DNA from: a virus | Length of the DNA: 50,001 nt | IMG/VR virus record: IMGVR_UViG_3300036845_000765 | Location: 1 to 50,001 of that record | Direction: 5' to 3' (one strand) | In this document: positions 16,938 through 34,080 of the stretch, in pieces | How the letters are laid out: every line of letters begins with the position of its first letter | Numbering within the stretch: position 1 is the first letter of the stretch | Notes under the pieces: generated by a model | The model's input: only the letters and a program-made list of their open reading frames with translations | Databases searched by the model: none | What the model was told of the DNA's origin: nothing | Translations under genes and position numbers: made by a program

Positions 16938-17237
16938 TCAAAACCTCCTGTTGATTTTCACGATCGGTTTGTTCAACAAAGCAGTCACATCCAACGCTGG
17001 GCCTTCGCTGGGAGCCTTCTTGGTTCGACCACCGGACATTCGCTTGGCCCGCTGTTGGCGTTGGTAGGCGATCACCGCATCGATGTACTTGGGCTGGACG
17101 ATACCGGAGCCAAATGCGATTTCCTCGTCGATGCGGGCCATGAGTTCGTCGATGGTGGAGGGTTCGTCGGAAGGGGGCTCAGGCTCATGGTTGGTATCAC
17201 TGTTGGTATCACTGTTGGTATCGGGTTCGTTAGTCAT
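16938..17237 (-). CDS. hypothetical protein with in-frame DTNS repeats at its N-terminus
   Basis: A 99-residue protein. Residues 5-17 are PDTNSDTNSDTNH, encoded by three tandem copies of the 12-bp unit GATACCAACAGT, the dispersed repeat described separately. The remainder is acidic (residues 18-45), then helical and basic (KYIDAVIAYQRQQRAKRMSGGRTKK). Function unknown. The start overlaps the upstream stop. The N-terminal extension looks like repeat DNA absorbed into a reading frame. Confidence 0.68.
   Translation of the reverse strand: MTNEPDTNSDTNSDTNHEPEPPSDEPSTIDELMARIDEEIAFGSGIVQPKYIDAVIAYQRQQRAKRMSGGRTKKAPSEGPALDVTALLNKPIVKINRRF
17190..17223 (-). repeat. dispersed GATACCAAC repeat: three tandem 12-bp units in a coding region
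   Basis: Minus-strand sense: GATACCAACAGT, GATACCAACAGT, GATACCAAC. Read as DTNSDTNSDTN within the gene at 16938-17237. Confidence 0.75.
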
Positions 17238-17515
17238 TCTACTTCCCTCATAGCATATATCTTCCTTTGCTCCTCGGTTAGCTCGTCGACATTGCTTCTT
17301 TCCACGGACACGCAGGGACCTTCACCTTCCTCGAAGCCAGAACAGTCAATGGCAAAGTGCATTCTTAGGTCTTCCCCATAGAATTGATCGAAGTCTCCGG
17401 CTGGATGGAGTTTCTTCGCGCAGAACAAGGTTGTCCCTTCGGTTGTGTAGTCGGAATAACCAAAATCCGCGTGGATGGCAAATTTACAGTTCATGCAGTT
17501 GGGTTCGTTAGTCAT
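17234..17515 (-). CDS. hypothetical protein with cysteine motif
   Basis: A 93-residue protein beginning MTNEPNCMNCKF, with a CxxC near the N-terminus, a third Cys in LFCAKK and a fourth in IDCSGF: possibly one metal site. Function unknown. The start is ATG 17515; a frame to 17548 overlaps the upstream gene more. Its first residues (MTNEP) match those of the next gene downstream, hinting at a duplicated initiation region. Confidence 0.62.
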   Translation of the reverse strand: MTNEPNCMNCKFAIHADFGYSDYTTEGTTLFCAKKLHPAGDFDQFYGEDLRMHFAIDCSGFEEGEGPCVSVERSNVDELTEEQRKIYAMREVE

Positions 17516-17696
17516 TGACAGCCCTCGGGTAGATGGTGAAGTGGCCACTGGTGCGATCCCAGCCTACTTGATGCAGGGTTTTGTGTTCGATGTAGCTGCC
17601 AAGCATGTGCATGAAATGGTTGACGTCTTCGGGCTCACCTTCGAAGATCACCTTCACCGGCTTGGGCTGGCGGCCGAATGGTTCGTTGGTGCTCAT
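17508..17696 (-). CDS. small hypothetical protein
   Basis: A 62-residue protein (KPVKVIFEGEPEDVNHFMHML core) with an alpha/beta pattern. Function unknown. ATG 17696 overlaps the upstream stop (ATGA). Confidence 0.62.
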   Translation of the reverse strand: MSTNEPFGRQPKPVKVIFEGEPEDVNHFMHMLGSYIEHKTLHQVGWDRTSGHFTIYPRAVND

Positions 17697-17857
17697 TCCG
17701 GTACCTCCCGACGAAGAGCGTCGTCAATACGTGACCAGAGCAATGCTACCAAACCGCCCAGACCGATTACGACTGATCTTGGGGTCTCAATCGGTAAGGC
17801 GATGTCCAAGAAGGCCTGCATTGCACCCGCCGTGAGCACAGATAAAATCCATTTCAT
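17693..17857 (-). CDS. small membrane protein
   Basis: A 54-residue ORF starting MKWILSVL, with a hydrophobic N-terminus and a second hydrophobic stretch (SVVIGLGGLVALLW). It probably has one or two membrane helices. Both ends overlap their neighbours by an ATGA junction, good evidence that it is translated. Function unknown. Confidence 0.6.
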   Translation of the reverse strand: MKWILSVLTAGAMQAFLDIALPIETPRSVVIGLGGLVALLWSRIDDALRREVPE

Positions 17858-18081
17858 TCCGGTACCTCCGTTGTCTCGTGAATAATAAACACCGTTCCTG
17901 GTGGCATGGGTTGCATGATCATCATATGGTCGAACCCGCCGAACTCTTCCCTGGCGAGGTAGAGATCGGCAACGAACTTTCGCCGGTCGTCATCGTTGAC
18001 GGTGATCTTGAGCCCGATTTCCTCCCGGTCCGCGGCTTGCCAGAGGGCTAGGTAGCTGGTGGATGGGGGTTTGGTGGCCAT
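17854..18081 (-). CDS. small hypothetical protein
   Basis: A 75-residue alpha/beta protein with no recognised motif. Coupled at both ends to its neighbours. Function unknown. Confidence 0.62.
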   Translation of the reverse strand: MATKPPSTSYLALWQAADREEIGLKITVNDDDRRKFVADLYLAREEFGGFDHMMIMQPMPPGTVFIIHETTEVPE

Positions 18082-18473
18082 TAGTCACGTTCCGTTTTGG
18101 TTAGGTTCTCAATCATCAACCTCGGAGCCGGACCGGCCAACTGCGGAGTGTCATCGATCTCGCTCAGGAGTTCGATCTCCCCAACCGCCAATGCCAACCG
18201 CTCCGCATAGACCCAGTAGTTGCCTTCATCATCTTCCTTGATCCGCAGACACATGTGGTCGTATTCACTGCTCCCGTGCATTTTGTGACCCTTCTCATAC
18301 ACGGTTTTGTTGAACTCGCGATGGAGCTTTCGCGCGTAGTTGCATCGATGGCGGAACTCGAAGGCTTTTTCGTAGGTGCCCATCGGGATCCGGCCACCTT
18401 TGGGGTCGTCGGATACTCGTTCGAAGAAGTCAATGCAGTCCGGGTAGGACTGTAGGGAGTTAGACATTGCCAT
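18081..18473 (-). CDS. hypothetical protein
   Basis: A 130-residue (or 128, from ATG 18467) mostly helical protein with many charged residues and conserved-looking KAFEFRHRCNYARKLH and YDHMCLRIKEDDEG segments. I do not recognise it. The start overlaps the end of the winged-helix gene upstream. Confidence 0.65.
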   Translation of the reverse strand: MAMSNSLQSYPDCIDFFERVSDDPKGGRIPMGTYEKAFEFRHRCNYARKLHREFNKTVYEKGHKMHGSSEYDHMCLRIKEDDEGNYWVYAERLALAVGEIELLSEIDDTPQLAGPAPRLMIENLTKTERD

Positions 18474-18789
18474 GGAAGGTGCTTTCAGTTGCTGGGGACT
18501 CAGGGATTGTTGTTGGTTTTGTAGCTATGGCGTACATGACAAGACGGGCTTTGCCGTTGGAGTAGTTGTGTTTGATTAGAGTATAGCGGGTGGGGACTAG
18601 GGCGGTTACCAACCGGTTGACGTTGCTTAGGGTAGCGGACTTCGCGTAGACGGTGTATCCGCTACCGTAGATTGCGCTGGTTATGTCGGAAGGTCCACAG
18701 CCGGGGTGGGTGAGGATGTATTCGAACACCCGTTGGAGGGTTGGGGTGAGCTGGAGGATGTGGTGGCCGCACTGGGGGCAGGTGGTCAT
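18460..18789 (-). CDS. zinc-knuckle plus winged-helix protein, possible regulator
   Basis: A 109-residue protein with an N-terminal CPQCGHH knuckle and then a winged-helix-like domain (LTPTLQRVFEYILTHPGCGPSDITSAIYG, then a variable second helix and a basic wing, YTLIKHNYSNGKARLVMY). The layout fits a small DNA-binding regulator of the early operon. Whether it binds the palindromes upstream of the early promoters is untested. The ORF is well bounded and follows a gene whose start is close to a copy of the dispersed repeat. Confidence 0.66.
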   Translation of the reverse strand: MTTCPQCGHHILQLTPTLQRVFEYILTHPGCGPSDITSAIYGSGYTVYAKSATLSNVNRLVTALVPTRYTLIKHNYSNGKARLVMYAIATKPTTIPESPATESTFHGNV

Positions 18790-18791
18790 GG

Positions 18792-19025
18792 TTAGTTCAT
18801 CCTTCCCTGGGCTAGGGCAGTAATGATCCGCTCATTCATCTTGTAGTTCTCGGAAATGGTCAGCCAGCCCATCGCCAGACGAGTGTTGCGATCCCCACCC
18901 TCGGCTTGGAGTAGGTGGGCCATCATGGCTGCGTCTTCTTGGAGTTCGCGGAGTCGGTCGAGCATTTTGAGATAAGTGATCCCGATGGTGGGGAGACCTG
19001 CGGTGGTTTCGTAGTGGAAGGGCAT
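18792..19025 (-). CDS. small helical hypothetical protein
   Basis: A 77-residue helical protein (LKMLDRLRELQEDAAMMAHLL). Function unknown. Its first 103 bases overlap the 3' end of the gene upstream in another frame. A copy of the dispersed repeat (19041-19065) lies 16-40 bp before its ATG, with an ACAGGAAG ribosome-binding site in between. Confidence 0.6.
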   Translation of the reverse strand: MPFHYETTAGLPTIGITYLKMLDRLRELQEDAAMMAHLLQAEGGDRNTRLAMGWLTISENYKMNERIITALAQGRMN

Positions 19026-19411
19026 AGGGCAGCTTCCTGTGGTTGGTATAATGAGGACAGACTAGCTTGGTCAGAGTAGGTGGCGATGATTTCTGGGATG
19101 AGCAAAGCTTCGATCCGCGCTGACTCCGCTTTCATTCGAACTTCGGTGATGGCCCAGGCACGGTTGACTGCGGAGCGGAGTTGGTCGGCAGAGCCAGAGG
19201 TTTGCATTTGGTAGATGAGTTGGTCGAGTTCGCGGAGGGAGCGGACTAGCTTGGTGATGTTGTCTTCTCGAGCTTTGGCTATGCTATTATGCTCTGAGTT
19301 GCTTAATGCCCACTGTTCACTCAACTTACGATTCAGTATGTGCAGATAAGCGTTGTCTTCCTCGAGCTTAGCTATCCTCGCCTTCGCCTTTCGGCCGAAC
19401 CAGTCGATCAT
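18923..19411 (-). CDS. coiled-coil protein with C-terminal extension through the dispersed repeat
   Basis: A 162-residue protein. Residues about 8-110 are a charged helical, probably coiled-coil region; the last 45 residues are Ser/Pro/Thr-rich. The change in character coincides with the dispersed repeat, which encodes ASLSSLYQPQ here, and the tail then overlaps the next gene by 103 bp. The tail may be read-through sequence acquired when the repeat arrived. Function unknown. Confidence 0.58.
   Translation of the reverse strand: MIDWFGRKAKARIAKLEEDNAYLHILNRKLSEQWALSNSEHNSIAKAREDNITKLVRSLRELDQLIYQMQTSGSADQLRSAVNRAWAITEVRMKAESARIEALLIPEIIATYSDQASLSSLYQPQEAALCPSTTKPPQVSPPSGSLISKCSTDSANSKKTQP
19041..19065 (-). 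repeat. dispersed repeat copy (TAGTCTGTC with TATACCAACC)
   Basis: Minus-strand sense: TAGTCTGTCCTCATTATACC then AACC. It lies in the 3' part of the gene at 18923-19411 and 16-40 bp before the start of the next gene. Same 18-base start as the copy at 28544. Confidence 0.72.
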
Positions 19412-19590
19412 CGGTCATCTCCGTGTAGAACCACAACCTCAAACCAACGTCCTTGGGCAAACATACAAACCAGCCCAGGGAAGTTGCCATACTTCCCTTC
19501 GTTGCGAAGTATCAACGCTCCGTTCTCGATCTTTGCGTAGTCGGCGATGACGGTGCGGGTGCCTTTGACAAGGATGACTTTGAATTTCAT
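19408..19590 (-). CDS. small beta-rich hypothetical protein
   Basis: A 60-residue protein with strands KFKVILVKGTRTVIADY and FEVVVLHG, perhaps an SH3-like barrel. Function unknown. ATG 19590 abuts the upstream stop and the end overlaps the next ATG. Confidence 0.62.
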   Translation of the reverse strand: MKFKVILVKGTRTVIADYAKIENGALILRNEGKYGNFPGLVCMFAQGRWFEVVVLHGDDR

Positions 19591-19898
19591 CAGAACCTCC
19601 GTTGGATGGTTATCTTCTGGGTCAGGGTGGATAGGTCGAGTTTGGGTCGGGAGATGTCAATACTCCACTCTACTGAACTCGGCTCCAGCTTCTCGGCCAT
19701 GGCGTGCATGGCGTCTTCGATGGCGCTGGCGAGGGTTGGGGCGTCGGCGCAGGATTTGAGGAGGTGGCTGTCGGAGTCGGGATCAGCGGCGGGACAGACG
19801 AGGGAACACCGCCAGTGGTCTGGGGCGAATTGGAACAGCCAGGAGATTTGCCAACCGGTTTCGGAGAGTTCGGTTAGCAGGTCGTCCACGCTGGTCAT
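19590..19898 (-). CDS. hypothetical protein
   Basis: A 102-residue alpha/beta protein starting MTSVDDLLTEL. It includes a WRCSLVCP strand and an Ala-rich helix (ALASAIEDAMHAMAEKL); the form recalls small phage proteins with a double-stranded-RNA-binding-like alpha/beta fold, but no motif settles this. The start is ATG 19898, overlapping the previous stop; the longer frame to 20111 is rejected. Confidence 0.62.
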   Translation of the reverse strand: MTSVDDLLTELSETGWQISWLFQFAPDHWRCSLVCPAADPDSDSHLLKSCADAPTLASAIEDAMHAMAEKLEPSSVEWSIDISRPKLDLSTLTQKITIQRRF

Positions 19899-20104
19899 TG
19901 GAATAACCTTCCCATGGTTGCTAGGCACAAACCAAAGAAAGCACCGCGCTGGTGGATTGTTAGACGGATGACGTCTTCCAGGGTTGCTCGTGCAAGGAAC
20001 TCCTCGATTGTGGCTGGGCCAGCTTGGTCCCCGAAGTATTTTTTGAAGAGTCTCCAAATACCGATGATTTCTAGGATGAATATGGCTAGGCCGGCTTTGG
20101 TCAT
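19895..20104 (-). CDS. small membrane protein
   Basis: A 69-residue protein with an N-terminal hydrophobic helix (LAIFILEIIGIWRLF) and a weaker C-terminal one (GAFFGLCLATM). Function unknown. ATG 20104 overlaps the upstream stop (ATGA). Confidence 0.58.
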   Translation of the reverse strand: MTKAGLAIFILEIIGIWRLFKKYFGDQAGPATIEEFLARATLEDVIRLTIHQRGAFFGLCLATMGRLFQ

Positions 20105-20582: not shown

Positions 20583-20764
20583 CCTTGCTTTCCTTTCCAG
20601 ATTGCCATGTGCTTCCCAGCATCCCGCACGTTTTCGTAGATTTGGAGCATGCGGTCGGCCATGGCGATTTCGGCTGGGGTGGCTAGGTCGGGGTTGATGT
20701 TGGCTTTGAGTAGCACGGTGGAGATATCGTCGGTGGGTTGTGGAACGCTCAAAACCGCCTCCAT
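20579..20764 (-). CDS. small hypothetical protein
   Basis: A 61-residue helical protein (PAEIAMADRMLQIYENVRDAGK). Function unknown. Its ATG lies inside the end of the upstream gene, and a double copy of the dispersed repeat lies 28-76 bp upstream of it. Confidence 0.6.
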   Translation of the reverse strand: MEAVLSVPQPTDDISTVLLKANINPDLATPAEIAMADRMLQIYENVRDAGKHMAIWKGKQG

Positions 20765-21183
20765 GGTTTGGGTTTCGCGGGGAGTGGTTGGTGGTTGGTA
20801 TCAGGCCTATGGTTGGTATCACTGCTACTGGACAGACGAGCCTCTGGTTCACCAACGGCCTCTGCGATGGCGTTGTGGAGAGCTATTGGGTCGTCTAGGG
20901 ACATCACGGTAAAGCCTAGGCCTGGGTCCTCCCCAACCATATCCCGATTATCCACCCAACCACCGCGGTCATGGTCCCAATGCCAGCCAGTGTTGACTGC
21001 TCCACGATCGATGAACCTGGGGAGCATCTCGCGATGGCGACAGGTTGAGCGCGAACCAGCGGGGCAGTCACATTCGGTGGTGGTGCAGAGGTAGGTGGTG
21101 ATGGGTTCGTTGTCGTCCCATTTGGTGATGCGGAAGTTGCCGCCGTCACTAGTGACTGATTTGCAGGAATAGAGGATGGTCAT
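20749..21183 (-). CDS. SWIM-type zinc-finger protein with repeat-derived tail
   Basis: A 144-residue protein with a SWIM-like metal motif: C38-x-C40-x7-C48-x-H50. SWIM fingers bind DNA or protein. A conserved-looking region follows (MSLDDPIALHNAIAEAVGEPEAR), then a low-complexity tail in which two copies of the dispersed repeat are read as SSSSDTNHRPDTNH before the stop. The tail therefore appears to be read-through into repeat sequence. Function unknown. Confidence 0.66.
   Translation of the reverse strand: MTILYSCKSVTSDGGNFRITKWDDNEPITTYLCTTTECDCPAGSRSTCRHREMLPRFIDRGAVNTGWHWDHDRGGWVDNRDMVGEDPGLGFTVMSLDDPIALHNAIAEAVGEPEARLSSSSDTNHRPDTNHQPLPAKPKPWRRF
20792..20840 (-). repeat. dispersed repeat, double copy
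   Basis: Minus-strand sense: CTCGTCTGTC, then CAGTGATACCAACCATAGG, then CTGATACCAACCAC. The first position of TAG is altered here (TCG). It is in coding sequence (SSSSDTNHRPDTNH). Confidence 0.72.
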
Positions 21184-22161: not shown

Positions 22162-22167
22162 TGGGGA

Positions 22168-22347
22168 TCACTCCGAGCCTGGGGCACGTTTGCGATACAA
22201 GTCGATATCGTGCAATCGCCAATCGGTATCCAAGTCTTGTTCGTATTCCTTGTGCCCGCACTTGGGACAGACTAGGCCGGAGACTAGTCGAACCTGGACT
22301 TGGCAGCGCGGGCATTTCACCAATGGTGCTGGGTATGGGCGTTTCAT
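22168..22347 (-). CDS. small zinc-ribbon protein, first gene after a strong promoter
   Basis: A 59-residue ORF with CPRC and CPKC pairs 15 residues apart: a zinc ribbon. It is the first gene downstream of a consensus sigma-70 promoter at 22405-22433. The segment coding GLVCP contains CTAGTCTGTCC, the leading half of the dispersed repeat, with GATACC 36 bp further on. Function unknown; small zinc ribbons in early operons often bind host RNA polymerase or nucleic acid. Confidence 0.62.
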   Translation of the reverse strand: MKRPYPAPLVKCPRCQVQVRLVSGLVCPKCGHKEYEQDLDTDWRLHDIDLYRKRAPGSE

Positions 22348-22462: not shown

Positions 22463-23386
22463 TTAGGAATACCAGCCTTCGAGGGAACCGCCACCGGCGA
22501 ACCATTCATCTCGGTTGATGGTTGGGTAGTCGAGGGCGGAGTAGGATAGACCGGCGTAGGGCTTAGGCTGCCCTTGTTCGATGCCAGCCGTGGCAGATGG
22601 CGCAGAACCAGGGGGCTCCCCAACGAAAGGGGGTGGGGATGCCTGTTCGTGGTTGGTATCACTGTTGGTATCACTGCTGCTTGGCACGGATCCGATCGGC
22701 GCAGAGTCCTGTGAGCCAACAGATTGGGATTGGACAGTTGGCAATGGGGAGCCAGTTTGCGGTTCGACAATAGGGTCCACCGGTTCCCTATCCTCCCGAA
22801 CAGACACCAAGGGTTCGACAGATGGGGACGACGAGACAGGCTCCGAGGCGACAGGCTGGGAGAGGGGAGGGCTCTGAGGGTCGAGATAGGTAAACGCGGC
22901 GGGGTCTGGGGGGACCGTCGAAGGCTCGCTTGACGGCTTCTGCCAAGTCCCCCCAACGTCCGGATAGGTCGTAGGGAGAGGGGCACTCTCACCCTCGATT
23001 GGGCCAGACACGGCCTGGGTTGGCTGACCAGCGGCCAACGACTGGGGGTCCATACTGGTACCAGCCTGTGGCTCCCCCAACGTTGTGGGCTCTGCAGGCT
23101 TCACCGGCTCCAACGTCGCCAGAGCAGCCTTGATATGCCCAATCGCGTCATTCGCCACCAGTTCGCGAAAGGATGCTTGGTCCCTCTCCTCCCGAAGCGA
23201 GACCACTTCCCCAGCCAACTCGCTGATCTTGGCTTGGAGACTGTCAATAATCGACTGGCGATCATCAATTGTATCCTTCAGCCGACCAACATTGGCTTCA
23301 TGGTCGGCAATGGTCCGCAGATATTCCGGTTCGGCCTGCTGGGCGCGATAGGCTTCGGCAAGCTGGGCAATGAAATCTTGTGACAT
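22463..23386 (-). CDS. coiled-coil protein with long disordered Pro/Ser-rich region
   Basis: A 307-residue protein. Residues about 15-90 are a heptad-like coiled coil (DTIDDRQSIIDSLQAKISELAGEV), residues about 95-270 are Pro/Ser/Glu-rich and disordered, and a short ordered C-terminus ends GGGSLEGWYS. Two tandem copies of the dispersed repeat are read in frame as SSSDTNSDTNHE near residues 236-247. I do not recognise the family. It resembles scaffold- or linker-type proteins, but it lies in the early arm. Confidence 0.68.
   Translation of the reverse strand: MSQDFIAQLAEAYRAQQAEPEYLRTIADHEANVGRLKDTIDDRQSIIDSLQAKISELAGEVVSLREERDQASFRELVANDAIGHIKAALATLEPVKPAEPTTLGEPQAGTSMDPQSLAAGQPTQAVSGPIEGESAPLPTTYPDVGGTWQKPSSEPSTVPPDPAAFTYLDPQSPPLSQPVASEPVSSSPSVEPLVSVREDREPVDPIVEPQTGSPLPTVQSQSVGSQDSAPIGSVPSSSDTNSDTNHEQASPPPFVGEPPGSAPSATAGIEQGQPKPYAGLSYSALDYPTINRDEWFAGGGSLEGWYS
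22651..22676 (-). repeat. dispersed repeat, two tandem units in coding region
   Basis: Minus-strand sense: CAGTGATACCAAC then AGTGATACCAACC, read as SDTNSDTN in the gene at 22463-23386. Confidence 0.72.
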
Positions 23387-23464
23387 TCGGGTCTACTCCT
23401 GGGTTAAGTGGACTTTGCCTTTCGGGTCTTGGCGTTTTCCACTTCTTGGGGATGGGGTGCGCGG

Positions 23465-23623
23465 TTACTTGGAGAACTCCTCGGTAGCCTGGGCTATGAT
23501 CTCGTTGATCAAGAGTTGTAGTACAAACACGCTGTCGGGAGGTGTCAGTACTGGGAACTCAGTGACCAGCACCTCCGCAATCCGGTCAGCACAACGCTTG
23601 ACTTCTTTTGGATGATCGTTCAT
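23465..23623 (-). CDS. small helical hypothetical protein
   Basis: A 52-residue helical, acidic protein starting MNDHPKEVKR. Function unknown. The start is ATG 23623, preceded by a GGAGCGA site; the upstream in-frame extension would run through the dispersed repeat at 23696-23725. Confidence 0.58.
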   Translation of the reverse strand: MNDHPKEVKRCADRIAEVLVTEFPVLTPPDSVFVLQLLINEIIAQATEEFSK

Positions 23624-23747
23624 TGGTTCGCTCCTGTTTGAAAGAGAAAAGCTGGGGAGATCCTGAGGATGTGTAGTGGATCGGCTGTGTGCTAGGGTTG
23701 GTATCACTGCTCCCCGACAGACTAGCTTCTTCGCACCGTTCCCTCAT
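23586..23747 (-). CDS. possible small ORF carrying the dispersed repeat
   Basis: A 53-residue frame (MRERCEEASLSGSSDTN at its start) with a GGGGAGAG site before ATG 23747. The dispersed repeat is read as ASLSGSSDTN. It overlaps the next ORF by 38 bp and has low-complexity composition, so it may be a leader frame rather than a functional protein. Confidence 0.32.
   Translation of the reverse strand: MRERCEEASLSGSSDTNPSTQPIHYTSSGSPQLFSFKQERTNERSSKRSQALC
23696..23725 (-). repeat. dispersed repeat copy
   Basis: Minus-strand sense: TAGTCTGTCGGGGAGCAGTG then ATACCAACCC. Lies in the gap upstream of ATG 23623. Confidence 0.72.
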
Positions 23748-23795
23748 TGCTCTCCCCAGTTGGCACTGCTGGCGCCGGGTTCAGTTCAGGTCATT

Positions 23796-23843
23796 CCCCC
23801 AGTGATACGCGGTTCGGATAGGCGTTCCGTTTCTCACTGGGGG
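23796..23843 (-). ncRNA. long-loop stem, possible structured intercistronic RNA
   Basis: A perfect 10-bp inverted repeat, CCCCCAGTGA / TCACTGGGGG, encloses a 28-nt loop in the 155-bp gap between genes. On the minus strand it is not followed by a U-run, so it is not a classical terminator. It could be a processing site or a protein-binding element. Confidence 0.4.
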
Positions 23844-23870
23844 TAGGGGGAAGGGGAGGCATGGGCCTAG

Positions 23871-23906
23871 GGTTGGTATCACACCTATGCCTCCCCGACA
23901 GACTAG
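23871..23906 (-). repeat. dispersed repeat copy starting at a stop codon
   Basis: Minus-strand sense: CTAGTCTGTCGGGGAGGC, a short spacer, then GTGATACCAACC. Its TAG is the stop of the gene at 23903-24622. Confidence 0.72.
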
Positions 23907-24622
23907 TGCGCAGTATGCCCGTGGCTCACCGCTTCCGTCTTCGGCTTGGCCCTGGAAGCCACCTTGCCAGACTGCTTGGCAGAGAGAGGAGCACCCTCCC
24001 CGTCAGCCTTGGCTTTGCGGCCTCCCTTCGGCTTGGACTTGACATCCGCACCACTTTCCTCTTTGGCCTTGAACAAGTCCTTGAGGTTCAGCGGAATGCT
24101 GGTCTTGGCATCGGCAGCGCGCTCGTCAAGATTGGCTTGCGCCTGCTTGAGCAACCGCGGATTGCCGGCAAGGACTTCCTTGGCATACGCTGTGATCTCA
24201 GAGGCTTTGTAGGCGTTTTGCTTATGGCCGATGGACCGGATGTGGTCCTTGACCATTTCCTTGGCGAGACGCATCGCCTCGGTCTGCAACGCCCCGGTGA
24301 CTTTGTCGGCGCCGCTGGCTTTCTTGCCTTTCAGAGACCCGGCCTTGAGATCGGCAAGGTTCTTCTTGGCTTGGGTAACCACTGCGGCTTCGATCTTCAC
24401 CTTCTCTTCCGGTGAGGCTTTGGTATGGCCGGTGATTTTGGACATCCCAACCGTGTTGATGATTGCTTCCAGGCCTTTCTGGAAGATATACGCACAGGCT
24501 TCGTCGGACAGGGAGGTTGAGTCAACCTCGATCGTCCCTGCTTTGAACTTCAGCTCGATAGTGTAAGTGGTTTTCTGAACCACCTCCGGGGAGCTGTCTT
24601 CGCTAACCGTCACGTCTGACAT
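23903..24622 (-). CDS. hypothetical protein with lysine-rich tail
   Basis: A 239-residue protein. Residues about 15-40 are beta-rich, the middle is helical, and the C-terminal 70 residues are Lys/Ala/Gly-rich, histone-like. DNA binding is plausible but unproven. The start is ATG 24622 (MSDVTVSEDSS); the longer frame to 24679 lacks a ribosome-binding site. The TAG stop codon is the first part of a CTAGTCTGTC repeat copy. Confidence 0.68.
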   Translation of the reverse strand: MSDVTVSEDSSPEVVQKTTYTIELKFKAGTIEVDSTSLSDEACAYIFQKGLEAIINTVGMSKITGHTKASPEEKVKIEAAVVTQAKKNLADLKAGSLKGKKASGADKVTGALQTEAMRLAKEMVKDHIRSIGHKQNAYKASEITAYAKEVLAGNPRLLKQAQANLDERAADAKTSIPLNLKDLFKAKEESGADVKSKPKGGRKAKADGEGAPLSAKQSGKVASRAKPKTEAVSHGHTAH

Positions 24623-24724
24623 TCGATGCATTCCTTTGTTGGACGTCTTTGGGTTTGAGATGGCGCTATCGGGAAGCATTGGCTAGGCCACACCGCTTGG
24701 CCCGATCTTTGGTCTTCTCACTGG

Positions 24725-24766
24725 CTTAAGCCGGGTAAGGGATTGTTGGTCCCTGCCCGGCGTAAG
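24725..24766 (-). ncRNA. conserved intercistronic hairpin, copy 1
   Basis: CTTA, one mismatch, GCCGGG, then AGGGA pair with TCCCT, CCCGGC and TAAG to form a long stem with a 7-nt loop. A second copy at 25009-25048 has the same plan with compensatory base changes. No U-run follows on the minus strand, so termination is unlikely. Confidence 0.62.
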
Positions 24767-24780
24767 CGTGATTGGGTTGG

Positions 24781-24960
24781 TTAGGAGATGGTATACCCAA
24801 CCTTAGCGAACTCGCGCTTGAAGTATTCGCGGTCATCCTCGGTCAGCGCCTTGATCTCGGCGGCGAACTCCTGCATGGTCTGGCTGGGCTTGAAGCCGAA
24901 GTAATCCTTGCACGCAGCGATGAAACCCATGGTCTTCGTGGAATTGCTGGCATTGTACAT
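24781..24960 (-). CDS. small hypothetical protein
   Basis: A 59-residue helical protein (SQTMQEFAAEIKALTEDDREYFKREFAKVG) resembling small phage early proteins of unknown role. The start is ATG 24960, preceded by GAGGAG; the in-frame extension to 25005 would run into the hairpin region. It lies between the two conserved hairpins. Confidence 0.65.
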   Translation of the reverse strand: MYNASNSTKTMGFIAACKDYFGFKPSQTMQEFAAEIKALTEDDREYFKREFAKVGYTIS

Positions 24961-25008
24961 AGCGTTGCTCCTCGGTTTGCGAGACGGACCGGGTTGTCCT
25001 CTCAACGC

Positions 25009-25048
25009 CTTAAGGCGGGTAAGAGGGAATGTCTCTGCCCGCCGTAAG
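25009..25048 (-). ncRNA. conserved intercistronic hairpin, copy 2
   Basis: Same architecture as the hairpin at 24725-24766: CTTA, mismatch, GGCGGG, AGAG, loop, CTCT, CCCGCC, mismatch, TAAG. Stem positions differ from copy 1 by paired substitutions (GCCGGG/CCCGGC against GGCGGG/CCCGCC). Confidence 0.62.
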
Positions 25049-25062
25049 GGAATGATGGTTGG

Positions 25063-25233
25063 TTACTCTGGATCGACCACCACTGTGAAGACGAATGACG
25101 TTGCGCCTTCGTGCTTGTGAATTGCAAAGCTGATTGCCTCAAGCAATTCCTTGCCTGAGCGATCTTTGCTGTCGTGTTCGTCAATTTCCCTGTCGGGATA
25201 GTTGACTGTCAAATCAAGACCATATTTTGTCAT
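25063..25233 (-). CDS. small hypothetical protein
   Basis: A 56-residue alpha/beta protein (MTKYGLDLTVNYPDREIDEH start; SFVFTVVVDPE end). A GGAG site 7 bases before ATG 25233 supports it over the overlapping frame at 25002-25184. A double copy of the dispersed repeat lies just upstream. Function unknown. Confidence 0.62.
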   Translation of the reverse strand: MTKYGLDLTVNYPDREIDEHDSKDRSGKELLEAISFAIHKHEGATSFVFTVVVDPE

Positions 25234-25249: not shown

Positions 25250-25296
25250 GTTGGTATCGTGGGGGACCTATGGTTGGTATCGTGGGGACAGACTAG
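25250..25296 (-). repeat. dispersed repeat, double copy starting at a stop codon
   Basis: Minus-strand sense: CTAGTCTGTCCCCACGATAC, CAACCATAGG, then a second CACGATACCAACC. Its TAG is the stop of the gene at 25293-25505. Lies just before ATG 25233. Confidence 0.72.
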
Positions 25297-25505
25297 CTCT
25301 CAGTTTTGGTCTTGGGTAGCACGCGCTTCACGTTCGCATAGGGGTTGAAGTTCTCCTCGAAGCGTTTCTCGTCAGGAATCACCTGACCTGTCCTGCCTAC
25401 TGTCTTGTGCACCACTATGTTGTCGTCTTCTTGCCTGACCACGACATAGCTTTCGCAAGCCCAATTAAACGACTCACCAACGTCAAAGTCTAAAGCTTGT
25501 GGCAT
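25293..25505 (-). CDS. small hypothetical protein
   Basis: A 70-residue beta-rich protein (SYVVVRQEDDNIVVHKTV). Function unknown. It has its own promoter-operator unit upstream (25540-25583) and a GAGAGGAGA ribosome-binding site; the leader resembles that of the gene at 26144-26329. Its TAG stop is part of a dispersed repeat copy. Confidence 0.65.
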   Translation of the reverse strand: MPQALDFDVGESFNWACESYVVVRQEDDNIVVHKTVGRTGQVIPDEKRFEENFNPYANVKRVLPKTKTES

Positions 25506-26143: not shown

Positions 26144-26329
26144 TCACAGCTTCTGCACACCCATTGTTGTACCACAGTTATCACAGTGATACCAATCAAA
26201 GCTCTTGTTGATCTCATTGAGATAAGCATGTGGATGGACAGGCTTGGAGCAATGGGGGCATTCCCCGCTCAGGATCTTGCTGCGCCTGATCTCTCGATCT
26301 TCCAGCTCTTTGGTCTGCCGATAGTTCAT
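26144..26329 (-). CDS. small zinc-ribbon protein
   Basis: A 61-residue protein with CPHC and CDNC pairs about 25 residues apart and a basic N-terminal helix (RQTKELEDREIRRSK). Likely a zinc ribbon in a regulator or adaptor. ATG 26329 is better spaced from GAGGAG than ATG 26335. It is expressed from the operator-linked promoter at 26368-26411. Confidence 0.64.
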   Translation of the reverse strand: MNYRQTKELEDREIRRSKILSGECPHCSKPVHPHAYLNEINKSFDWYHCDNCGTTMGVQKL

Positions 26330-26367
26330 ACCCATTCTCCTCTCAGGCCTAATCGCCCAATCCGTCC

Positions 26368-26430: not shown

Positions 26431-26464
26431 TATGGTTGGTGGTTGGTATCACTGCGACAGACTA
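26431..26464 (-). repeat. dispersed repeat copy starting at a stop codon
   Basis: Minus-strand sense: TAGTCTGTCGCAGTGATACC, AACC, ACCAACCATA. Its TAG is the stop of the membrane peptide at 26462-26563. Confidence 0.72.
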
Positions 26465-26623: not shown

Positions 26624-27076
26624 GCACAATTTCATCCCATTTCCAGGCCTGACCAGACCAACCAAGGATGGAGATTGCCCTTGGCCCGCTATGTGCCCCC
26701 CACTTGGTTCAGGTAGGCCCAAGGTGATACCAACATGATACCAAGGTCAGTGAGCCCTCCAGCCTACCCCTTATCCGGGCCTAGGCCTTAGAGTCATCAA
26801 AAAAACCAAAAAAAAAATCGACCCTACGGTATGTACCCCCCCCCCCTCCGGGTACGGGGTAGCTGGGAGATCCCACGAACCTTGGTATGATCTTGGGCTG
26901 ATCTTGGTACCACCTGGGCGGGAAGGGTGGAGATGGGTGGTTGGTGGATTGGTGAGGCAGCTATCCAGCTCATGGGGATCGGTGCAGGTGGAGCTTGGGG
27001 CAATTGGGGAAGGGGCGAGGAATGCCCGATTGTGCGTTGCAATGACAAACTAGTCCCATATTGCTGCACCGCATCA
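26624..27076. other. divergent intergenic region with homopolymers and short repeats
   Basis: No convincing gene. It contains A-rich runs at about 26799-26818, a run of about 12 C at about 26838-26849 flanked by GTACCC and GGGTAC (a potential hairpin), two GATCTTGG repeats at about 26890-26907, and a plus-oriented pair of GATACC motifs at 26724-26745. An ORF at 26927-27169 is not supported. The region separates the two divergent transcription units and may hold origin or regulatory sequences. Confidence 0.5.
26724..26745 (+). repeat. pair of GATACCAA motifs in the divergent region
   Basis: Plus-strand GTGATACCAAC then ATGATACCAAGG, 11 bp apart. Lacks the TAGTCTGTC half. Confidence 0.5.
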
Positions 27077-27165: not shown

Positions 27166-27426
27166 ATGACCCAAGCCTCCCAGCTTTCCCCGACCGAACT
27201 CGCCCTCGTCAAACAGATCGCTGAACTGAAAGCCCAGCTTGAGCAAGCCAACAAGCCCAAGGCGATCACGCTCAAGGTCTCCGAGAAAGGCGCGCTGTCC
27301 ATCTACGGCCTTGGCCGCTTCCCGATCACGCTGTACCTCTCCCAGATCGAGCGCCTGATCGGCCATGTTGACCAGATCAAGGCCTTCATCGCCACCAACC
27401 GCTCCCTGTTCGCCACCAAGGCCTAG
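27166..27426 (+). CDS. small conserved phage protein
   Basis: An 86-residue protein: an N-terminal coiled-coil helix, then a beta-rich segment (AITLKVSEKGALSIYGLGRFPITLYLSQIERLI) that I have seen in many phage early proteins without a known role, and a C-terminal helix. An AAAGGA site precedes ATG 27166. It is the first gene of the plus-strand arm, apart from the terminase group, and has its own promoter. Confidence 0.72.
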   Translation: MTQASQLSPTELALVKQIAELKAQLEQANKPKAITLKVSEKGALSIYGLGRFPITLYLSQIERLIGHVDQIKAFIATNRSLFATKA

Positions 27427-27802: not shown

Positions 27803-28480
27803 GTGAACTACGCGCTCCACAGAGGTAGACTGGCTACTGCGCCGAGGATACTAGAGGTTCGCCCGTTGGTTCGGGAGGACCTCGCTGTCCTGCGGCAGAG
27901 GCGTGCGCCGTCGGGAAGGATCAAAGCGTTCCGGAATCATCACCATCGTCTGGCGAAGCTGGTCGCGGCTGGGTTGAAGCGGGCGCAGATTTGTGAAGTC
28001 ATGGGGATCAGCTACTCCCGGCTGAGCCAGTATGAGTCCGATCCGGCTTTCCAGAACTTGGTTGCCCAGTATCGTCCCGAGATCGACGCGGAAGATCAGA
28101 AAGAGATTGACGAGTATCGATCTCTCAAACTCGACAACATGATCCGGGCCGAGCGCCAGATCGGCGAACAGCTCGAGCGAGCGGAGGAAGAGGACGAACC
28201 AATCGCTCTCCGCTCGCTCCTTGCCATTTCCTCCGACGGCGCGGATCGCCTGGGCTATTCCAAGCATTCTCGCCAAACCACTGAAATCCTAGACTTCGCC
28301 AAGATCATGGAACAGAAAATGTCCCTGCTTGGCAAAGGCGTTGTGATTGATGCTGACCGACAGCCCACGGTTGAATCAATCACCGGCGATGGAGGCTCAC
28401 CCACCGGCTCCTCTCCTCCATCGCCGCCCAAACTCACTGGTGAGACGACGCGCCAGCGGGTCCGGGGAGGGGAGACATGA
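27803..28480 (+). CDS. terS: small terminase subunit
   Basis: A 225-residue protein with an N-terminal helix-turn-helix (RLAKLVAAGLKRAQICEVMGISYSRLSQY, about residues 49-77), a central acidic helical region and a Pro/Ser-rich tail. Small terminases recognise packaging sites and feed DNA to the large subunit. The large terminase follows after one small ORF. The GTG start at 27803 lies 39 bp after a consensus promoter, with a GAAGG site. Confidence 0.8.
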   Translation: MNYALHRGRLATAPRILEVRPLVREDLAVLRQRRAPSGRIKAFRNHHHRLAKLVAAGLKRAQICEVMGISYSRLSQYESDPAFQNLVAQYRPEIDAEDQKEIDEYRSLKLDNMIRAERQIGEQLERAEEEDEPIALRSLLAISSDGADRLGYSKHSRQTTEILDFAKIMEQKMSLLGKGVVIDADRQPTVESITGDGGSPTGSSPPSPPKLTGETTRQRVRGGET

Positions 28481-28596
28481 TCGCGCGATGTGGTTATTCG
28501 GGTCATCACATTTCGCTCGCCGATCTGTTTCCCCTTTTCGGTTTAGTCTGTCCTCATTATACCAAGCTTGATACCAACCATAGGTCCCAATCATAA
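28477..28596 (+). CDS. 39-residue ORF between the terminase genes, built on the dispersed repeat
   Basis: The ATG overlaps the stop of the small terminase gene (ATGA) after a strong GGGGAGGGGAG site, and its TAA overlaps the ATG of the large subunit (TAATG). The second half is the dispersed repeat, read as LVCPHYTKLDTNH. Coupling suggests it is translated; it may act mainly as a coupling leader for the large terminase. Function unknown. Confidence 0.5.
   Translation: MIARCGYSGHHISLADLFPLFGLVCPHYTKLDTNHRSQS
28544..28587 (+). repeat. dispersed repeat copy between terminase genes (plus-strand sense)
   Basis: TAGTCTGTCCTCATTATACC, AAGCTT, then GATACCAACCATAGG. The same sense relative to transcription as the minus-arm copies. 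It is inside the 39-residue ORF before the large terminase. Confidence 0.75.
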
Positions 28597-30113
28597 TGGA
28601 CCCCCGCCTCGCAGAATGGCTAGTCTCCGTCCGCGACGATCCTGAAGCCTTCGTCATGGGCGCCTTCCCCTGGGGCGAGAAGGGATCTCAGCTCGAAGGC
28701 TACACCGGCCCGATGCCTTGGGCCGTCAACCAAATGCGCCGAATCAAAGCCGGTCTGATCAACGTCAACGACGCGATCATGGAAGCAGTCGCCTCCGGTC
28801 ACGGCATCGCCAAGTCCACAACCGTCGCCCATCTCATCCTCTGGGCATTCATGACCTACCCAGACACCCGAGGAGTCATCACCGCCAATACCGAAACCCA
28901 ACTCAAAACCAAAACCTGGGCCGAACTCGGCAAATGGTTCAACCTCTGCTGGTTCGCGAGGGAATACTTCTCCCTCAACGCCACATCCCTCCTCTCCAAA
29001 GACCCAACCCGAGAACGAACCTGGCGGATCGATATGATCCCCTGGTCCAAAACCAATCCCCAAGCATTCGCTGGCCTCCACAACAAAGGCAAGCGAATGC
29101 TACTAGTCTTCGACGAAGCCTCGGAAATCGAAGACATCATCTGGGAAACCGCAGAAGGTGCCTTCTCCGACCGTGACACCCAGCTCATCTGGCTAGTCTA
29201 CGGCAACCCAACCCGCAACTTCGGCCGGTTCCGAGAATGCTTCGACGGTGGCAAGCACAATTCCTTCTGGCACTGCACCCAGATCGATTCCCGCGATGTC
29301 CCAATCACCAACCAAAAGCGCATCGCCAAACTAATCGCCACCTACGGTGAAGACACCGATTACACCCGCATCCGCATCCTGGGACAGTTCCCGCGCCTGG
29401 GCATGATGGAGTTCTTCTCTGCAATGGACATCGACGCAGCCATGTCCACCGAGCGCGAGGTTTATGTAGATGCCCTCACCCCGTTGGCTCTCGGTGTCGA
29501 CGTTGCCCGGTACGGCAAGAACAACTCGGTCATCTATCCGCGTAAAGGCCGAGACGCCCGTTCCCTCCCAGCCAAGGTCTTCTCTGGCATCAACACCGTC
29601 GCCCTATCCAACCAAGTCTATTCCGCCTGGGAACTCTGGCATCCCGACGGAATCTTCATCGACGGCGGCGGTGTCGGCGGCGGTGTCGTCGATTCCTGCC
29701 GGGCCAAGTCCCTCTACGTCACCGAAGTCCAGTTCGGCGCCAAAGATTCCATAACCGGCCTGATCTTCAACAACACCGGTGAAAAATACGCCAACATGCG
29801 CGCAGCCATGTACGGCGCCGCCCGAGCTTGGCTCCCCAACGGCATGCTCCCGGCCAACCCAGAACTCCGAACTGCGATGTTGGCGATCACCTACACCTTC
29901 AACAAGCAGGATGAAATCATCCTCACTCCGAAAGAAGACATCCTCGCCGACCATCCCGATATCGACCTCGACACCCTCGACGCCTTCTGCCTAACCTTCG
30001 GCGGTCCCTTGGTCCCGAACGCCAACGCCGGTGGCGAACGCCCCGACTCCACCAAACCCCTCCACCAAACAGAGTACAACCCATTCGACCCAGCCTTCAT
30101 GGATGCAGCATGA
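28596..30113 (+). CDS. terL: large terminase subunit
   Basis: A 505-residue packaging motor. The ATPase N-terminus has a P-loop SGHGIAKST (67-75) in which the usual Gly before Lys is Ala, and Walker B LLVFDE (169-174). The nuclease domain has GVDVARYG (D302), an IFIDGGGVGGGVVD segment at about 352-365 and a final Asp in DLDTLDAF. It uses ATP to move DNA into the prohead and cuts the concatemer. It sits between the small terminase and the portal. Confidence 0.93.
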   Translation: MDPRLAEWLVSVRDDPEAFVMGAFPWGEKGSQLEGYTGPMPWAVNQMRRIKAGLINVNDAIMEAVASGHGIAKSTTVAHLILWAFMTYPDTRGVITANTETQLKTKTWAELGKWFNLCWFAREYFSLNATSLLSKDPTRERTWRIDMIPWSKTNPQAFAGLHNKGKRMLLVFDEASEIEDIIWETAEGAFSDRDTQLIWLVYGNPTRNFGRFRECFDGGKHNSFWHCTQIDSRDVPITNQKRIAKLIATYGEDTDYTRIRILGQFPRLGMMEFFSAMDIDAAMSTEREVYVDALTPLALGVDVARYGKNNSVIYPRKGRDARSLPAKVFSGINTVALSNQVYSAWELWHPDGIFIDGGGVGGGVVDSCRAKSLYVTEVQFGAKDSITGLIFNNTGEKYANMRAAMYGAARAWLPNGMLPANPELRTAMLAITYTFNKQDEIILTPKEDILADHPDIDLDTLDAFCLTFGGPLVPNANAGGERPDSTKPLHQTEYNPFDPAFMDAA

Positions 30114-30301: not shown

Positions 30302-30426
30302 TGTTTGAAAACTGGGTCCCTCCCGAATTCTACTGGATGATTTTGTTAATTGTCATCCTCGGAGGCTCATGGATTGTATTTGGTCTGTGGCATCTGTTTG
30401 CCCACCTTTCAATTGGATGGCTGTGA
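30301..30426 (+). CDS. 41-residue membrane peptide
   Basis: MFENWVPPEFYWMILLIVIL and a hydrophobic continuation: one membrane helix. It overlaps both neighbours by TGATG-type junctions, which favours real translation. Its codons are more AT-rich than those around it. Function unknown. Confidence 0.55.
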   Translation: MFENWVPPEFYWMILLIVILGGSWIVFGLWHLFAHLSIGWL

Positions 30427-31012: not shown

Positions 31013-32766
31013 ACGCCCCAATCGCCAACCCGTTCTCAGGCATCTACTCGGAATATGTCACCGAGCAAGACATGCTCTTGCGGAAATTCCAACAAGGGCG
31101 TTTGCTTGGTCTGCGGAACAACCGATACTCGTGGTGGACCCACGCGAGGGAGTTGGCTGATTTCATCCTTCCCCGGAGATATAAATGGCTAATTACCCAA
31201 AATCAACAGAACCGTGGTTCTCCAATCAACCAGCACATATTGGATTCTACTGGCACTATCGCGGCCCGCAACCTGTCTGCCGGAATGATGTCGGGGATAT
31301 CTTCCCCTACTCGACCTTGGTTCAAACTCAAGATTGGACGTTTAGACTCCACGCAAACCAGCCCCACGAGCTTGTGGTTAGCTGAATGCGAACGCCTGAT
31401 GTACCTCGTCTTCGCCGAATCCAACTTCTACACCTCCATGGCGATCTTCTACTTCGACCTCGTCGTCTTCGGCACCGCAGTCCTCCTCATCTACGAAGAC
31501 TTCGACAACGTCCTCAACTGCATCAACCCATGCTTTGGCGAATACTACGTCGACATCGACGGGAAATACCGCCCAGTCATCTTCTATCGCGAGTTCACCT
31601 TCACCATCGCCCAAGTCGTCGCGGAGTTCGGTTACGAGAACTGCTCCCCAATGATCCGCCAGTTCTACGATCTCCAAGACGGCGCGAACCTAACCCGAGA
31701 GGTCATCATCGCCCATGCCATCGAACCGAACACGGATGCGAAGAAGTATGGCATCCCTACCCATTTCGAATATCGTGAGACTTATTGGGAATGGGGAGGT
31801 GCTACAAATCCTCAGGGGGGAACTACTGCGCGCGGCTTCCTCCGAAAGCGTGGGTTCACTGAACGTGCAGCTATCATTGGGCGATGGGATTTGGTCGCCA
31901 ACGATCCGTATGGCCGATCTCCCGGCATGGATGCTCTCCCGGACATCAAACAACTCCAACAGCAAAGCCGACGCAAAGCCCAAGGCATCGACAAAGGCAT
32001 CAACCCTCCTCTAGTCGCCGACGCCCAACTCAAAAACCAACCCGCATCCCTCCTCCCCGGCGGCATCACCTTCCTCCAAGGAATGATGTCCACCGGCCAA
32101 GACGGAATGAAACCAGTCTACGGTTCCTGGCGGCCCGATATCACCGCGATCTCCGAAGATCTCCAAGAAGTCCGCCAGCGAATCAAAGACACCTTCTTCA
32201 ATTCCCTATTCCAAGTCGCATCCCAATTCGAAACCCGATCCAACATCACCGCTGTCGAATGGGACATGCGGAAATCCGAATCCTTGATGATGCTGACCCC
32301 AGTCATCGAGCGTCTCCAATCCGAAGTCCTAGCCCCAGTGATCGACCGGGTCTGGGGAATCATGGATCGCGCTGGCATCCTTCCTCCACCCCCACCCGAA
32401 GCCGCAGGGAAGTTCATCAATGTCGAATACACTTCTATGCTCATGCTCAGTCAGCGAGCCGCCACCGCTGGCTCGATTGAACGTGTACTTCAAATGGCCG
32501 GTCAGCTCGCTGGCATTGACCCATCCGTCGTTGACAATATCGACTTTGATATGGCCATCGACCTCTACGCCAACCTCCTCAACCTCGACCCCCGAATCAT
32601 CCGCTCCCCAGCTTCCCTAGCCCAGATCCGCCAACAGCGCCAAGCCCAGCAGCAACAAGCCGCCCAGTCCCAGCAAATCGAAGCCCTCTCCAAAGCCGGC
32701 GCCAACGCTTCCCAAATCGACGTCGGCGGTGGCCAGAACCTCGTACAGAAGATGCTCCAAGGATGA
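31009..32766 (+). CDS. portal (head-tail connector) protein, T7-like
   Basis: A 585-residue portal of the short-tail phage family: the N-terminal RNxRYxWWxxARELADFILPRR segment, then the long central wing and a Gln/Ala-rich C-terminus (RQQRQAQQQQAAQSQQ). It forms the dodecameric channel through which DNA enters and leaves. The GTG start overlaps the previous stop (GTGA). Parts of the gene (about 31170-31380 and 31740-31870) use more A/T-ending codons than the rest. Confidence 0.9.
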   Translation: MNAPIANPFSGIYSEYVTEQDMLLRKFQQGRLLGLRNNRYSWWTHARELADFILPRRYKWLITQNQQNRGSPINQHILDSTGTIAARNLSAGMMSGISSPTRPWFKLKIGRLDSTQTSPTSLWLAECERLMYLVFAESNFYTSMAIFYFDLVVFGTAVLLIYEDFDNVLNCINPCFGEYYVDIDGKYRPVIFYREFTFTIAQVVAEFGYENCSPMIRQFYDLQDGANLTREVIIAHAIEPNTDAKKYGIPTHFEYRETYWEWGGATNPQGGTTARGFLRKRGFTERAAIIGRWDLVANDPYGRSPGMDALPDIKQLQQQSRRKAQGIDKGINPPLVADAQLKNQPASLLPGGITFLQGMMSTGQDGMKPVYGSWRPDITAISEDLQEVRQRIKDTFFNSLFQVASQFETRSNITAVEWDMRKSESLMMLTPVIERLQSEVLAPVIDRVWGIMDRAGILPPPPPEAAGKFINVEYTSMLMLSQRAATAGSIERVLQMAGQLAGIDPSVVDNIDFDMAIDLYANLLNLDPRIIRSPASLAQIRQQRQAQQQQAAQSQQIEALSKAGANASQIDVGGGQNLVQKMLQG

Positions 32767-32972
32767 CCAAAGCCCCCATCGCCCAGCACTCAATGATCTT
32801 CGAAGTCACCGGCAAGGATGAACGTGGTCGGTCCACAACCAAAGACATCACCATGTACGCACCACCATTCCTTTCCCTGGCCCAACTCGAAGCCCACCTC
32901 GCCGAAGCCATCCGTCTCAACCCGGATCTGAAATTCGTCCACAAATCCTGGGCAGGGCTACCCAATGACTAG
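32763..32972 (+). CDS. small hypothetical protein
   Basis: A 69-residue protein between the portal and Bbp19-like genes (MTKAPIAQHSMIFEVTGKDE start). Coupled to the portal stop by ATGA. Its own TAG stop is the beginning of a CTAGTCTGTT copy of the dispersed repeat. Function unknown. Confidence 0.65.
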   Translation: MTKAPIAQHSMIFEVTGKDERGRSTTKDITMYAPPFLSLAQLEAHLAEAIRLNPDLKFVHKSWAGLPND

Positions 32973-32999
32973 TCTGTTATTCCGGCAGTGATACCAACC
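32969..32999 (+). repeat. dispersed repeat copy starting at a stop codon (plus-strand sense)
   Basis: CTAGTCTGTTATTCCGGC then AGTGATACCAACC, immediately before ATG 33000. Its TAG is the stop of the gene at 32763-32972. Confidence 0.75.
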
Positions 33000-33446
33000 A
33001 TGACCCGCGATGGTACCGACCGCAAATCCCTAGCCCGCTTAGCTAAGCAAGCCAAGCAGTCCGAAGCGAACCGGATTGCCTACACCCGAACCATCCTATC
33101 CGACCGCTTCGGCCGCGAATGGATGTGGAACCTCCTAACCCGCTGCCATTGTTTCCACACCTCTTTCGTCGCCGGCCACCCAGATATCACCGCGTTCCAA
33201 CTAGGCGAACAGTCCATCGGTCTCCAACTCCTCGCCGATGTCACCCTCGCCTCCCCAGCCGACTACACTCTCATGTCCAACGAAGCTCTAACCCGGGAAC
33301 TAGCCAATGCCAGCCGAGAATCCAACCCCGACCAACAATCCGCAGACCCAGCCGGGAATCCGGGATCCCTCGGGAACGATCCTGGACAGCCCATCGACGA
33401 CGGCTCCGGATTCCTCGACCCAGACGACCCAGCCAGCTACCACTGA
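33000..33446 (+). CDS. Bbp19-like protein
   Basis: A 148-residue protein with the helical core RxxxxxxWxxLLxRCHxFHTSFVAGHPDITAFQLGEQSIGLQLLADV, as in the Bbp19-type proteins that lie between portal and scaffold in BPP-1-like phages. The C-terminus is acidic/Pro-rich. The start is ATG 33000; an in-frame GTG at 32988 would put the dispersed repeat (IPT) in the protein. The last 140 bases overlap the next gene in another frame. Confidence 0.75.
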   Translation: MTRDGTDRKSLARLAKQAKQSEANRIAYTRTILSDRFGREWMWNLLTRCHCFHTSFVAGHPDITAFQLGEQSIGLQLLADVTLASPADYTLMSNEALTRELANASRESNPDQQSADPAGNPGSLGNDPGQPIDDGSGFLDPDDPASYH

Positions 33447-34080
33447 GCAGCCTGGGACATCGTTCCTTACCGGGAAGAAGGTCGAAGGTGACGGTAGCAG
33501 TGATACCAACAGTGATACCAAGCCCGACCCTGCCAAACCCGACACTCCAGTCCTCCCCGCTGGCGCGCCCGAGAAATACACCGACTTCAAACTCCCCGAT
33601 GGCGTCTCCATGGACCCCAAGGCCAAAACCGATTTCGAAACCTTCGCGAAATCCACCGGCCTATCCCAAGACCAAGCCCAAGCCGCTGTGGACGTCTACA
33701 CCAAGCACGCCATCGCCGCGGCCAAAGCCCCTTACGACCTCTGGGCCAACACCCAAAAAGAATGGCAAACCGAAATCCTCTCCCGCTTCGGTGGCGAGTC
33801 CGGAGCCGACCGTATGCGCGCTGATGTCAACTCCGTCATCTCCCGAACCCTTCCCCCGTCCCTCCAGAAATCCTTCCGGGCCGCTCTGGACTTCACCGGC
33901 GCCGGCACCAACCCAGACATCCTCGAAGCCTTCTCCATCATGTTGAAGCCCCTCATGGAAGGCAAACCAGTCCTTGGCAACGGCCCAGTGACCCCGGCCG
34001 ACCCAGCCAAACCCGGCGCAGGCCAGCAAGTCGACCTAGCGGCGGCAATGTACCCCCATCTCGTGCCCAATCGGCGCTAA
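33307..34080 (+). CDS. capsid assembly scaffolding protein
   Basis: A 257-residue protein just before the coat gene, with a disordered Thr/Pro-rich N-terminus (about 1-95) and a helical body (FETFAKSTGLSQDQAQAAVDVYTKHAI). Scaffolds with this composition guide prohead assembly and then leave. Two copies of the dispersed repeat are read as SSDTNSDTK near residues 64-72. The first 140 bases overlap the preceding gene; no later start is attractive. Confidence 0.8.
   Translation: MPAENPTPTNNPQTQPGIRDPSGTILDSPSTTAPDSSTQTTQPATTEQPGTSFLTGKKVEGDGSSDTNSDTKPDPAKPDTPVLPAGAPEKYTDFKLPDGVSMDPKAKTDFETFAKSTGLSQDQAQAAVDVYTKHAIAAAKAPYDLWANTQKEWQTEILSRFGGESGADRMRADVNSVISRTLPPSLQKSFRAALDFTGAGTNPDILEAFSIMLKPLMEGKPVLGNGPVTPADPAKPGAGQQVDLAAAMYPHLVPNRR
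33498..33522 (+). repeat. dispersed repeat, two tandem units in the scaffold gene (plus-strand sense)
   Basis: GCAGTGATACCAAC then AGTGATACCAA, read as SDTNSDTK in the scaffold protein. Confidence 0.72.

Follow-up and report, generated by a model that had tools for sequence, protein, structure and literature searches.

The window analyzed here is a 50,001-bp IMG/VR virus record of 56% GC representing a soil phage. It is a podovirus, with the head-tail connector PF12236 (31009-32766), the terminase large subunit (28596-30113) and the major head protein (34179-35222). Other genes encode a DNA polymerase A (10388-11914), a DUF3987 primase-like protein (9232-10491), a PD-(D/E)XK nuclease (15678-16736) and an endolysin (6641-7300). 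Named phages are distant: portal identity remains below 60% and the nearest polymerase, that of Caulobacter phage Kuura, is 35% identical. The genes form two arms diverging near 26.7-27.1 kb, and the GC skew changes sign at about 25 kb, near this divergence. A minus-strand protein (12107-13372) combines a uracil-DNA glycosylase domain and a 3'-5' exonuclease domain, apart from the polymerase A gene. Gene-start sequences were also seen by eye to recur between neighbouring small genes, at 17514/17237 (ATGACTAACGAACCC), 17860/17705 (GGAGGTACCGGAATGA) and 26345/25517 (CTGAGAGGAGAATG).

Two short sequences recur on both sides of the arm divergence. The 12-mer GATACCAAC, hereafter box B, is found in 17 exact copies in the window where 0.17 are expected, and TAGTCTGTC, hereafter box A, in 7 exact copies where 0.13 are expected. 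The boxes group into 11 loci, M1-M8 in the minus arm and P1-P3 in the plus arm (Table 1). The original prediction of a dispersed two-part repeat is borne out, since all eleven positions that it listed were re-found and the exact counts are far above expectation. Eight loci carry both boxes when up to one mismatch is allowed. Box A is exact in six of these, the variants being TCGTCTGTC at 20831 and TAGTCTGTT at 32970, and a box B variant, TATACCAAC, occurs at 19042. The gaps from box A to box B at the eight loci measure 5, 5, 5, 10, 10, 11, 16 and 17 bp; the longest belongs to the locus at 28544 and contains a degenerate TATACCAAG after 5 bp. Helical phasing of this gap was rejected because it varies by about half turns. 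Tandem 12-bp units are present at 17190 (three), 22652 (two) and 33502 (two, the second with one mismatch), and tandem box B units are spaced by 11-13 bp, about one helical turn, at four loci and in the region between the divergent arms, which we call the hub. Several copies have an ATAGG end, which is absent from the tandem coding copies.

All 11 loci are in transcription sense (two-sided p about 0.001). They are also clustered (circular test, p about 1.5e-4), all falling in a part of the genome, about 33%, that surrounds the hub. The uniform orientation originally reported holds for the loci, but one antisense 12-mer at 26184 had been missed; when it is counted, 11 of 12 are in sense (p about 0.006). 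Several other matches were rejected as dispersed copies: a site at 34725, lacking box A and a matching flank and located in the major capsid gene, was taken as chance, as was a box A without box B at 22266 in a zinc-ribbon gene, and the plus-strand copies at 26726 and 26737 both fall within the hub inverted repeat.

Table 1. Positions of the two-box loci and of the hub in the window
Feature	Position	Strand	Composition and setting
M1, box A	26456..26464	-	TAGTCTGTC; its TAG terminates the small ORF upstream
M1, box B region	26431..26450	-	GATACCAACCACCAACCATA
M2	25250..25295	-	Box A (25287-25295), supplying the stop of ORF 25293-25505, with box B at 25273 and at 25250
M3	23866..23905	-	Box A (stop of gene 23903-24679) and box B, separated by 16 bp; box B occupies the loop of a strong hairpin in the RNA
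M4	23693..23724	-	Boxes A and B, 10 bp apart; in a structured intergenic region, where a loop is predicted
M5	22652..22675	-	Two tandem 12-bp box B, in frame (SDTNSDTN); low-complexity linker of gene 22463-23386
M6	20794..20839	-	Box A (1 mismatch) and two box B; in-frame insertion near the C terminus of gene 20749-21183
M7	19036..19064	-	Boxes A and B (TATACCAAC) with a 5-bp gap; just 5' of gene 18792-19025
M8	17190..17222	-	Three tandem 12-bp box B, in frame; N terminus of gene 16938-17237
P1	28544..28584	+	One box A and two box B, the first of them degenerate, then CATAGG; 5' of the terminase large subunit gene
P2	32970..33001	+	Box A TAGTCTGTT (TAG is the stop of ORF 32763-32972), 11-bp spacer, box B
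P3	33498..33524	+	Two tandem 12-bp units, in frame (SDTNSDTK); linker of gene 33307-34080
Sole antisense exact match	26184..26195	+	CAGTGATACCAA; within minus-strand gene 26144-26335
Hub left arm	26710..26778	+	Holds GTGATACCAAC and ATGATACCAAG (26726, 26737)
Hub loop	26779..26847	.	A-rich and C-run tracts; possible unwinding region
Hub right arm	26848..26916	-	Inverted partial copies CTTGGTAT (26881) and CTTGGTACC (26903), span 26881-26911

The loci M1, M2, M7, P1 and P2 lie at gene junctions, M3 and M4 are found after a stop codon and in a structured intergenic region, and the coding loci M5, M6, M8 and P3 fall in protein linkers or termini and are read in one shared frame (SDTN). Only P2, M7 and M2 are within about 20 bp of a start, box B of P2 being directly 5' of the ATG of gene 33000-33446. 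Box A acts as a stop codon at four loci; its TAG is a stop in 4/7 cases versus 12/71, an enrichment too modest for box A to be retained as a designed stop codon.

The 508-bp hub contains an imperfect inverted repeat (score 46 versus at most 38 in shuffles) whose repeat GTGATACCAAC is box B (p 1.5e-4, order-1 Markov shuffles); box A is represented there only by a one-mismatch near-match (27044). The direct repeats at 26726 and 26737 are 11 bp apart and the loop includes an A tract. A significant hub inverted repeat was found in seven of the ten relatives examined (G002, G004, G006, G007, G009, G010 and G014); it was marginal in G003 and not significant in G015 and G017, for which the stretch chosen may not correspond to the hub. 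Despite the similar architecture, the arm sequence differs in each relative. None of them was seen to disperse its own hub repeat, so that the link between hub and dispersed copies is drawn from one genome. Judged by its anatomy only, the hub is likely an origin of replication and/or an operator. A C run next to GGTATGTACC is common to the window hub (26830-26850) and to the G014 hub (about 15.8 kb), the arms being different.

Among the relatives examined, the element is private to this genome. It is absent from the loci recovered by portal/capsid searches, from 26 loci recovered by polymerase searches and from whole or partial records of 20 relatives, collections that may leave out very near records; the element-free relatives include some whose portal is 88-89% identical and whose sequence spans the P1 or P2 site. 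In gene 20749-21183, the homologs of G005 and G002 pass from GEPEA directly to a short C terminus, whereas box A and two box B add about 19 residues to the window protein (GEPEA-RLSSSSDTNHRPDTNHQPL-PAKPKPWRRF versus GEPEA-MISPAPKSWRRF); the protein is alignable elsewhere, and the insertion is clean. In gene 23903-24679, several relatives end in TAH and a stop codon (CACTAAC) where the window uses the TAG of box A; the IMG/VR search returned no close relative of this gene. Neither the insertion in coding sequence nor the fact that the central inverted repeat has box B as its unit had been noticed in the original prediction. Pattern scans of IMG/VR gave, among the matches listed, only single matches per contig, at chance level. 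A host-derived element was rejected, as an 18-base pattern had two single matches, about chance, in the genomes of 84,980 bacterial and archaeal species. Nothing relevant on dispersed repeats of other podoviruses emerged from the literature searched. The element appears recent: the closest relatives lack it, the empty site can be seen in nucleotide sequence, and its likely source or partner, the central inverted repeat, belongs to the same genome. The origin and spread of a site network thereby become questions that can be asked.

Between pairs of the eight two-box loci, box A differs on average by 5.6% and box B by 2.8%; spacer positions differ by 55-76% and flanks by 66-77%, 75% being the random value. 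Near-invariant boxes amid divergent spacers and flanks point to selection on two modules rather than to neutral copying of one block, and it is mainly from this conservation that we infer a function, although some excess of box over spacer similarity is expected because the loci were recognized by their boxes. M7 and P1 have 22 bp in common, spacer included, and the M3 and M4 spacers begin alike, which argues that copying took place and that the boxes outlast the spacer.

The search for a candidate binding protein had no positive result: no tyrosine integrase, resolvase or clear repressor was found in the window, where small ORFs were searched in part. The only HTH, in a terminase-small-like protein (27803-28480), scores below cut-off. 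The 86-aa protein Z (27166-27426, plus strand) adjoins the hub and is conserved in ten relatives (LKVSEKGALSVYGLGRFPVTLY); it has no Pfam, PHROG, PDB or fold match, and with a fair AlphaFold model (mean pLDDT 83, pTM 0.50) it was not retained as the element binder. The minus strand at 23630-23905 forms a structured intergenic region (MFE z -2.9) whose motifs GAGAAACGGAACG, CCAGTAGTCCCAA and CTCAGGAT are also found in relatives downstream of the same gene; Rfam gave no hit at gathering scores in the window and none relevant at 23400-25200, and this region is possibly a new RNA.

The leading explanation, which we hold tentatively, treats the copies as scattered, directional sites to which a protein of the phage (or its host) binds; the main target of this protein would be the hub inverted repeat between the divergent arms. 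The explanation is based on the sequence itself: polarity is near-complete, the two boxes alone are conserved, the element is inserted relative to relatives, box B is identical to the hub repeat and the loci cluster around the hub. A sequence-specific protein would bind box B (and box A) in a polar manner, and the bound sites may act on passing transcription as roadblocks or in read-through control, as stoperators do; alternatively, the bound protein may link the dispersed sites to the hub in the manner of dispersed iterons. A rigid single complex is not favored, because box spacing shifts in steps of about half a helical turn. Short-sequence copying in this lineage would have generated the copies, which gene junctions, RNA loops and protein linkers would have accommodated and which selection on the boxes would then have kept; the retention of in-frame coding copies might have protein-level reasons. 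It seems unlikely that the site belongs to the replication initiator or to a central regulator and is dispersed over about 16 kb with fixed polarity in both arms and fast turnover per lineage. If true, one protein would couple origin use to the transcription of each gene block and each lineage would invent its own site.

It is also possible, with a lesser probability than protein binding, that the element is a selfish or neutral micro-repeat devoid of function, produced as replication proceeded from the hub, through template switching or slippage confined to one strand. Orientation would then reflect fork polarity, both arms running outward from the hub, and since the polarities of replication and transcription are confounded in this genome, neutral strand-biased copying is a serious rival. 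It accounts well for the restriction to a single genome, the tolerant locations (after stop codons, in RNA loops and in protein linkers), the tandem 12-bp runs and the spacer sharing of M7/P1 and M3/M4, but poorly for boxes that are nearly invariant between nearly random spacers and flanks, or for the match of box B to the hub arms. More doubtful is an RNA-level junction element, in which unstructured GAUACCAACC in mRNA would either be bound by a phage RNA-binding protein or pair with an antisense transcript from the hub, with control of translation or stability as the outcome. All loci are sense, most copies are unstructured as RNA, many are located between a stop and a start codon, box A supplies a stop codon at four loci, the complementary TTGGTATC is present in the hub and similar start-associated repeats exist in the relative G014; on the other hand, four loci are within coding sequences, no hub transcript is known and the enrichment of TAG as a stop is modest, as given above.

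Folding and promoter searches bear on two further readings. The RNA of 10 of the 11 copies folds no better than shuffles (z -0.9 to +1.9), the M3 copy (23866) being the sole strong hairpin (z -2.2). The nut/put-like antitermination or RNA processing role proposed in the original prediction is not supported by this result: two boxes, polarity and presence in both arms recall such sites, but most copies lack a hairpin beside the box, box spacing ranges from 5 to 17 bp, no N- or Q-like protein was found and terminator matches are not above those of shuffles, which makes this role very unlikely. Promoters of a phage single-subunit RNA polymerase are hardly credible at all. The copies are short, polar and mostly upstream of genes, several have the ATAGG end, and we take ACCAACCATAGG to resemble the T7 sequence ACTCACTATAGG; against this, the tandem coding copies are without that end, Pfam and PHROGs revealed no phage RNA polymerase among the large proteins of the window, and a further search was negative, with a control that gave no signal. 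The statement that the copies are not sigma-70 promoters was upheld: the two best matches (22433-22405 and 26623-26595) are located away from the copies, which have no strong -35/-10 hexamers and too variable a box spacing. A weak 10/12 match overlapping P1 at 28568 is within chance numbers.

The best-known polar dispersed sites are those of mycobacteriophages, in which relatives have them in common. The stoperators of Cluster A phages (L5, TipsytheTRex) consist of a single 13-bp asymmetric site bound by one protein and, as in the window, are short, numerous, placed at gene junctions and in a control region, and oriented with transcription (PMC9283540). All 11 loci agree with this polarity, the one antisense exception lying outside them, and box B is present in the hub between the divergent arms, a presumed promoter/operator region. 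Unlike stoperators, the element has two boxes, variable spacing, tandem copies and several copies in coding sequence, its control-region copies form an inverted repeat, and neither a repressor nor an integrase was found. A stoperator system further includes a phage-encoded repressor of the HTH plus stoperator-domain type that, once bound, blocks elongation in one orientation. Stoperators are its closest working analog; the element is not assigned to them, since no repressor turned up and protein binding is a prediction. The SAS of Cluster K, located 3-7 bp before start codons with partial 16S rRNA pairing, are likewise short asymmetric repeats mostly in one orientation, there in the non-structural half, and ESAS add a second part with a variable spacer (PMC3203893). 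Unlike SAS, which are common to several phages, few copies here are near starts, M5, M6, M8 and P3 being coding. The 17-bp repeats of Cluster O are dispersed in the absence of an integrase, with about a third coding, but they are palindromes without meaningful orientation and occur in all five phages (PMC4351075). Iterons of phage and plasmid origins resemble the element in their units about one helical turn apart and in a central inverted repeat beside a low-complexity tract; direct repeats so spaced near an AT-rich tract are found here for the hub copies only. Iterons are normally confined to the origin, and dispersed polar copies in transcribed genes are unusual.

Lack of conservation in related phages had been named at the outset as grounds for abandoning the proposed role. 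Taken literally, this is what was found, but three relatives possess different private repeats of similar style, so that being private need not mean being non-functional. None of them is a hub iteron and their sequences differ; they hint, short of proof, that private repeats tend to arise repeatedly in this phage group, and it can be asked whether those of G002, G014 and G017 are parallel inventions. G017 (L410-L412) carries CTAGCACAGTCAT at about nine loci (for example 410, 1707, 5737, 16236, 49932 and 51387), mostly in one orientation, with the early arm, and with two inverted pairs. G014 (L401) carries GGAAATCTCAAATG at gene starts: as GG(C/A)AATCTCAA, it occurs at 14302-15432 and 17154-17172, several copies ending at the start codon, with two antisense copies in the terminase-small-like gene. 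An inexact 12-mer scan (two mismatches) returned mostly GC-rich coding-word noise but did detect the G014 repeat. In G002, TTGCACTGTGCGTTTAACC is found three times, twice ending at ATG.
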